Virus record (IMG/VR): IMGVR_UViG_3300010354_000494
Span: 1 to 27,573 of that record
DNA length: 27,573 bases
Strand: one strand, 5' to 3'
DNA from: a virus
A program made the position numbers and the translations under genes. The notes beneath the pieces are model-generated. The model was not told the DNA's origin, did no database searches, and saw nothing but the letters and a program-made list of their open reading frames with translations. How positions within the stretch are numbered: the first letter of the stretch is position 1; every line of letters starts with the position of its first letter. Shown here in pieces: positions 290 through 401 of the stretch.

Positions 290-401
290 AGGTTCACTAC
301 AGCATATAGACATGATAATAGGAAAGTTCCGGTGTACAATTCCGGAGGATCTAAGGGTCTTAGTGTAATAGGCTAGCACATCCTAACCTAAGTGTGAACC
401 T
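290..401 (+). ncRNA. RNA unit A: circularly permuted tRNA-Ile(GAT)-like RNA closed by an 8 bp stem
   Basis: The ends 290-297 (AGGTTCAC) and 394-401 (GTGAACCT) are exact complements. Inside, tRNA parts occur in permuted order. First come an anticodon loop ATGATAA (GAT at 313-315 region) with 3' stem TAGGA (319-323), then an atypical T arm (CCGG...CCGG, 329-345), then the 3' acceptor strand (346-352). The 5' acceptor strand, a D arm GTGT/GCAC (363-366/376-379) and the 5' anticodon strand TCCTA (381-385) follow. TCCTA pairs fully with TAGGA. The acceptor can fold as AGGATC/GGTCTT with a TAAG loop. The T loop lacks the TTCRANY consensus, so function as a charged tRNA is uncertain. A normal tRNA-Ile(GAT) exists at 2716-2790. 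Confidence 0.6.

Follow-up and report, generated by a model that had tools for sequence, protein, structure and literature searches.

A permuted tRNA-like, Y-RNA-like unit in an array upstream of a phage Ro60-like gene

The Ro60-like gene and its upstream array

The window analysed here, a stretch of 27,573 nucleotides (27.6 kb; IMG/VR record IMGVR_UViG_3300010354_000494), is from a T4-like phage, with genes for a clamp loader, a sliding clamp and an SbcC-like exonuclease. A gene on the plus strand at 980–2416 encodes a protein matching Pfam DUF2828 and DUF7788 as well as PHROG 850, which is labelled "RNA-binding protein". This family has relatives in 682 phage records, and names such as "Ro sixty-related" and "Ro-like RNA binding protein" are found among them. 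Pfam TROVE (PF05731) had no match anywhere in the window, and the product is therefore a distant Ro60. An AlphaFold2 model of the protein (pLDDT 76) was compared with PDB structures by Foldseek. The top matches were a TROVE domain (9kop, E=3e-9) and D. radiodurans Rsr (2nvo, 6e-6); human Ro60 (9nen) was matched at E=7e-5, and the TROVE, Rsr and Ro60 matches ranged from E 3e-9 to 9e-5. As modelled, the product has the Ro60 fold, a helical-repeat ring with a vWA domain, but the fold is not assigned in detail because of the pLDDT of 76 and the modest TM-scores (0.35–0.54). In Listeria, Cronobacter, Rhizobium and Aeromonas phages, RtcB or an RNA ligase is encoded within a few kb of the Ro60-like gene (L090:7854-11506, L087:3504-4769, L086:10747-11422 and L088:10083-11006); these ligases fit an RNA-repair setting.

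Upstream of the Ro60-like gene, our frame scanner identified six framed units between 290 and 964, designated A to F, all on the plus strand. A first-pass annotation had described unit A (290–401) as a permuted, Ile(GAU)-like tRNA, and was silent on the frame common to the six units and on the Ro60-like neighbour. As it had stated, unit A and unit B (412–523) are both 112 nt long, and CTACAGCATAT directly follows the closing stem in each (297–307 and 419–429). The closing stem of unit A, AGGTTCAC at 290–297 and GTGAACCT at 394–401, is a perfect 8 bp, and the CAGCA of the frame lies at 300–304. Within it, the T arm comes first, followed by the acceptor and then the D arm, with the 3′ half preceding the 5′ half. 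TCCTA (381–385) is complementary to TAGGA (319–323), in agreement with the pairing proposed earlier, and ATGATAA (312–318) is the loop of this anticodon-like arm once the halves are joined; the joined arm has a 5-bp stem and a 7-nt loop with U33, GAU and A37. The T arm (328–346; TCCGG 328–332 paired with CCGGA 342–346) is degenerate because its loop is 9 nt, not 7. The acceptor (347–360) pairs GGATC (347–351) with GGTCT (356–360) around a TAAG loop, giving 5 bp that include two G-U pairs, without CCA. The D arm (363–379) has a 3-bp stem formed by GTG (363–365) and CAC (377–379). The degenerate T loop and acceptor, and the very short link between the acceptor strands, had all been noticed previously and are borne out by these measurements.

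Neither ARAGORN nor Rfam called unit A in the plain sequence, and ARAGORN made no call even for the rotated unit; taken alone, unit A falls below the score thresholds for tRNA and YrlA. The single-sequence folding z-scores, only −1.6 for unit A and −1.1 for unit B, did not decide the matter. A covariance model was then trained on 16 other permuted units, with A-type units left out. This model matched the whole length of unit A at 33.3 bits (E=1.4e-5), which ranked third in the window after unit B (a member of the training set) and unit C, and the top non-unit match scored 21 bits. Because a model not trained on unit A found it at this E value, the match is better than chance. The tRNA likeness of unit A, as a permuted body, is real but worn.

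The other five units differ in their bodies. Unit B is a well-formed permuted tRNA-Thr(UGU)-like unit, of which 446–511 matched Rfam YrlA at 46 bits (E=2e-8), short of the 69-bit gathering score; the best related units scored about 40 and unit A was not listed in that search. Unit C (533–619) is permuted and tRNA-like but has no anticodon arm (T arm 558–574, acceptor 575–593, D arm 595–607), and the covariance model scored it at 37 bits (E=1.8e-6). Unit D (705–833) combines the frame with a non-tRNA body of about 104 nt and has homologues in L001, L002, L008, L009 and L011. Units E (844–893) and F (903–959) carry short hairpin bodies of 28 and 35 nt, respectively. GTTGA follows unit F, and 16 nt further on the Ro60-like gene has its start codon. 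The gap between units C and D contains a promoter-like site on the plus strand, TTTACT-N16-TATTAT (661–688, within 654–690), a single consensus match that is at chance level for that scan; relatives have TTGACT/TTGACA...TATTAT-like sites at the corresponding place. A sigma-70-like promoter between tRNA-like and short units was also seen in L006, L008, L009 and L013–L015; its −35 box shares sequence with the GTTGA tail of the unit before it (GTTGAC) in several of the relatives.

The window also holds a normal tRNA-Ile(GAT) at 2716. Between tRNA-Tyr and tRNA-Ile, the sequence at 2634–2709 resembles tRNA-Met(CAT) with an odd D arm and was called neither by ARAGORN nor by Rfam. Within the phage tRNA array, the protein encoded at 2949–4973 has Ser/Thr-rich stretches, what looks like a signal peptide and no Pfam match; it resembles a secreted or outer-membrane protein.

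A common frame with exchangeable bodies

The common frame reads stem–NNN–C(A/C)GCA–body–stem′–G, and the phage consensus is RR-stem-NNN-C(A/C)GCA ... G with an end stem of 6–9 bp. The frame scanner required a stem starting with two purines, 1–5 nt, CNGCA, a body, the paired strand and a GTTGA-like tail. A first, looser version gave 593 forward against 304 reverse hits and was replaced by the stricter one. In 80 related loci plus the window, the strict scanner found 273 units on the strand of the gene, as compared with 4 on the opposite strand and 3 in shuffled sequence. None of the units in these loci lay inside the Ro60-like gene and nearly all were upstream of it, the last unit of an array usually ending 4–25 nt before the start codon. 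In three longer contigs, convincing units occurred only within a few kb before the Ro60-like gene.

The collection comprises 203 distinct units with 72 distinct stems. The bodies are short (45 nt or less) in 86, middle-sized in 74 and long in 43, and include permuted tRNAs, normal-order tRNAs, short hairpins and large folds. Of the 74 middle bodies, 44 had a T arm (shuffled mean 0.6) and 22 were called by ARAGORN after rotation (0 of 74 when shuffled); no short body had a T arm. Since the frame also holds normal-order tRNAs, hairpins and non-tRNA folds, it is the frame that stays constant and not the tRNA. The earlier expectation of body swaps within a constant outer frame thus proved correct. 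Long framed bodies of 140–230 nt were seen at L048:3514-3919, L051:3587-3801, L068:586-821, L071:3609-3812 and L073:3652-3854, with recurring internal motifs such as ACGATTGG.GATAGGGTC. Among the Rfam matches listed for the loci scanned, all those above the cut-off were tRNA, and the long bodies are possibly undescribed RNA modules.

Because the frame scanner itself demands pairing, covariation was examined separately. Viral contigs were scanned for the 5′ motif TTTTAGGNTNNNTNCAGCAA with no demand for pairing, and the stem was checked at three variable positions against the first NNANCCTGT found downstream. Among the motif matches listed, the 3′ strand paired at all three positions in 84 of 94, while random re-pairing gave a mean of 7.4 and a maximum of 16. 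Again among the matches listed, 50 of 80 contigs have a Ro60-like gene (37 within the fetched stretch and 13 in the whole record), as does every record longer than about 110 kb. The tRNA-like units showed 95% paired cells and 79 double-sided changes in the named structure, compared with 24 in the shuffled control and at most 16 in the slid control. A G follows the 3′ strand in open and capped frames alike, as if it might form part of one binding site. Self-pairing of UCAGCA with UGUUGA within a single unit was considered and rejected: a pseudoknot across a 7-bp stem would need longer connecting strands, and conservation of the tail's UUGA part does not extend beyond this phage group.

Phages of Synechococcus, Cronobacter, Aeromonas, Rhizobium, Escherichia (Felixounavirus), Listeria, Campylobacter, Staphylococcus and Mycobacterium have frames of this type close to the Ro60-like gene. 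In Clostridia, they precede chromosomal DUF2828 genes, and the bacterial loci scanned at the strict threshold gave 17 forward versus 2 reverse frames. The CAGCA-framed arrays of Clostridia were found in MAGs L246–L279, with permuted tRNA-like units at L259:2579-2676, L278:2600-2697 and L279:2699-2797. A relaxed scan of three sampled phages, nt-1, vB_OspM_OC and GAP32, identified no convincing short frame beside the Ro60-like gene, so these phages may have a different partner RNA, encode it at another place or lack one.

Relatives of unit A and arrangements of frame and tRNA body

Comparison of orthologous loci, which the first-pass annotation had proposed, showed that a tRNA-like body is kept at the A-type position in all six related sequences (L001, L006, L007, L013, L015 and L019), within the same or a similar frame. 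The tRNA likeness is therefore not a matter of chance. The stem sequence of unit A and its frame are retained in L001, L006, L007 and L013; a canonical T loop is present in L006 and L019, and L019 was called by ARAGORN once rotated. The anticodon loop varies among these sequences, being ATGATAA in the window and L001, CCCATAAA in L006, CTTGAGA in L019 and CTGAAAA in L015, and the anticodon arm is shortened in L013. The break point moves as well: in the window it falls within the anticodon arm, in L006, L015 and L019 it precedes the arm, and in the B-type units of L050, L061 and L079 the whole anticodon arm is on the other side. Because both the anticodon loop and the break point vary, Ile(GAU) decoding and a fixed splice site are unlikely. 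The first-pass annotation had itself argued against a splice signal at a fixed position, and had asked whether the Ile reading might be chance; the tRNA likeness withstood that comparison and the Ile identity did not, as homologues differ in this loop but keep the frame and the tRNA-like arms. Unit A is not a tRNA-Ile, given the differences in anticodon loop and break point among homologues and its lack of CCA, nor is it a decoding tRNA. The idea that it has gained another role is supported.

Frame and tRNA body were found in four arrangements. In the first, the acceptor is sealed and the frame is open, as in units A, B and C. The second is permuted with CCA and a linker, and is represented by L013:375 and L015:273, which have a 7-bp acceptor, an encoded A-CCA and a linker of 69–94 nt, and by L082:7154-7293 of Cronobacter phage S13. 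In the third, the frame replaces the acceptor stem of tRNA arms in normal order (L006:1197-1315, L007:3697-3815 and L080:430-529). ARAGORN calls the first two of these Ile-AAT and the last Cys-GCA; by eye, L015:889-1001 and L046:3598-3688 belong here also. The fourth is a complete normal-order tRNA with a 7-bp acceptor and with a capped frame hairpin in or beside the anticodon arm, the caps being mostly GNNA loops. It is carried by S13, Aeh1, BUCT-ZZ01, Aeromonas 4_4572, L066, L095 and clostridial chromosomes, with 23 distinct examples after removal of one tRNA-Ser false match. The shuffle control yielded none, and the reverse-strand control yielded four, of which two were the same tRNA-Ser artefact and two were genuine, their loci being stored reversed. 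A joined permuted unit spanning two S13 tRNAs (L082:6947-7065, 61.8 bits) was discarded, since each of the two tRNAs has its own 7-bp acceptor. Examples of the fourth arrangement adjoin DUF2828 genes at L082:6890-7145, L094:9061-9316, L081:6580-6810 and L248:2730-2870; CNGCA accompanies the hairpin in these, and most phage members encode CCA. In the open-CCA and capped-hairpin kinds the amino-acid end is free, and charging could occur.

Interpretation of unit A

Y RNAs encoded beside Ro60 in bacteria and phages, some of them with permuted tRNA-like modules, are already known, and Chen et al. in 2014 reportedly described such RNAs, with tRNA-like domains, in both. In YrlA, the end stem holds Rsr, and the tRNA-like domain has D, T and acceptor arms; YrlA is modified by DusA and TruB and is linked to PNPase (PMC8394870). 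YrlA in phages has been mentioned (PMC7765460), as have ROT/TROVE proteins of jumbo phages with a tRNA-like partner (PMC7824862). The units described here resemble YrlA (RF02553) in having an end stem formed by the 5′ and 3′ ends, in the module order of T arm, closed acceptor and D arm (unit B aligns to YrlA 23–87, and unit A through the covariance model), and in adjoining the gene for a Ro60-type protein, as YrlA does with Rsr. They differ in the frame, which is NNNC(A/C)GCA ... G and not the YrlA basal stem ggCgaAUGC ... UuGucGcc, in the Ro60, which is of the DUF2828 type, and in the presence of several units per locus with many body types that include normal-order tRNAs. By score and by basal-stem sequence, unit A is not a strict member of the Rfam YrlA family. 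Of the traits of Y RNAs in the broad sense, they have both an end stem (8 bp in unit A, with covariation) and a Ro60-family neighbour (980–2416, and the unit positions in the 80 loci). The phage Ro60-like proteins of PHROG 850 are of the same family as the 980–2416 product, and in the annotated regions examined their RNAs are unannotated or called tRNA (S13, Aeh1). The literature searched held no description of the CAGCA frame, of multi-unit arrays with exchangeable bodies or of tRNAs with a frame hairpin; the large modular arrays and the normal-order tRNAs with a capped frame hairpin seem to be a new variant.

We consider it highly probable that unit A is, like the other five units beside the Ro60-like gene, a non-coding Y-RNA-like RNA of the phage, with the frame as its docking part. 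Judged from sequence, it most likely grips the Ro60-like protein with the end stem and leaves a tRNA-shaped head exposed to other proteins. The constant frame would dock on the ring protein and the body would serve as an interchangeable effector module, which in unit A appears to be a circularly permuted, partly decayed tRNA mimic; the frame would continue the opened anticodon arm, and the tetraloop would close the acceptor end. By analogy with the role described for YrlA, the probable task of unit A is to bring tRNA-binding factors, or a tRNA shape, to the Ro60 RNP. We infer that the units are transcribed, that Ro60 is bound through the frame and that there is an effector partner. The tRNA-like heads may recruit nucleases or tRNA-modifying enzymes, or may be decoys for tRNA-cleaving defences, and the short units by the start codon could act in cis. 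Several observations weigh against a Y-RNA-like role, namely the dissimilarity of the frame to the Rfam YrlA basal stem, the missing Pfam TROVE match, the scores of unit A taken alone and the three sampled phages in which no convincing frame was seen.

One could envision that the tRNA-like modules function as decoys or sensors for tRNA-cleaving host defences and not as tethers for a nuclease such as PNPase. This proposal, which we think rather unlikely, is compatible with a Y-RNA-like role because it concerns the effector step only. These phages carry large tRNA sets, several have an RNA ligase or RtcB near the Ro60-like gene, the anticodon loops vary among units, and a competitive-inhibitor idea has been raised for YrlA (PMC7790460); however, many units have no tRNA-like body, and YrlA is not cut by the Salmonella nuclease (PMC7790460). 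Another scenario is that the frames are cis elements (leader, processing or termination) that control the Ro60-like gene, and that the tRNA bodies are incidental. The last unit almost touches the ribosome binding site in most loci and the units are on the same strand as the gene, but this scenario is improbable: units lie up to 4 kb away, among tRNA genes, and also downstream of the Ro60-like gene (Faith1, SEP9, S13), the tRNA-like arms are under covariation constraint, and frames occur as hairpins within complete tRNAs.

A third possibility is that unit A is pseudo-tRNA debris, a decaying copy in a tRNA array that has no role. Its 9-nt T loop, weak acceptor and 3-bp D stem, together with the absence of an ARAGORN call even after rotation, are what such a copy might show. 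We regard this as very improbable in view of the full-length model match, the perfect 8-bp end stem, the frame with the same stem sequence in four relatives and the orthologues with a canonical T loop. Finally, a true permuted tRNA-Ile gene, cut at the acceptor, freed of the frame and joined to give tRNA-Ile(GAU) as in algae, is barely credible: the half order, the joined anticodon arm and the relatives with A-CCA and a linker (L013:375, L015:273) recall the permuted tRNA genes of algae and archaea, in which the 3′ half likewise precedes the 5′ half and to which the CCA and linker of these two and of the S13 unit are also similar, but the acceptor of unit A is a sealed 5-bp hairpin with TAAG and no CCA, its anticodon loop differs from that of every relative but L001, its break point moves, its frame is shared with non-tRNA bodies, and a normal tRNA-Ile(GAT) is present at 2716.

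If unit A is indeed a Y-RNA-like RNA, what had been an isolated oddity becomes a testable system, a phage RNP with exchangeable RNA heads, and NNNC(A/C)GCA with a covarying stem and G provides a signature for RNA partners of a widespread, little-studied Ro60-like family. The DUF2828-type Ro60 of phages and Clostridia might use a modular RNA set, consisting of a docking helix and tRNA bodies in several circular orders, although we hold this broader proposal only tentatively, at somewhat less than an even chance. If it is true, tRNA-mimic Y RNAs arose repeatedly from tRNA genes by insertion and permutation; because complete tRNAs with the putative docking hairpin adjoin the same protein, they suggest a route by which tRNA mimicry arose in Y RNAs. 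Among annotated phage tRNAs, some of those 110–125 nt long are probably not decoding tRNAs, and the records annotate several tRNAs of the capped-hairpin arrangement as tRNA-Ser, tRNA-OTHER or tRNA-Val.
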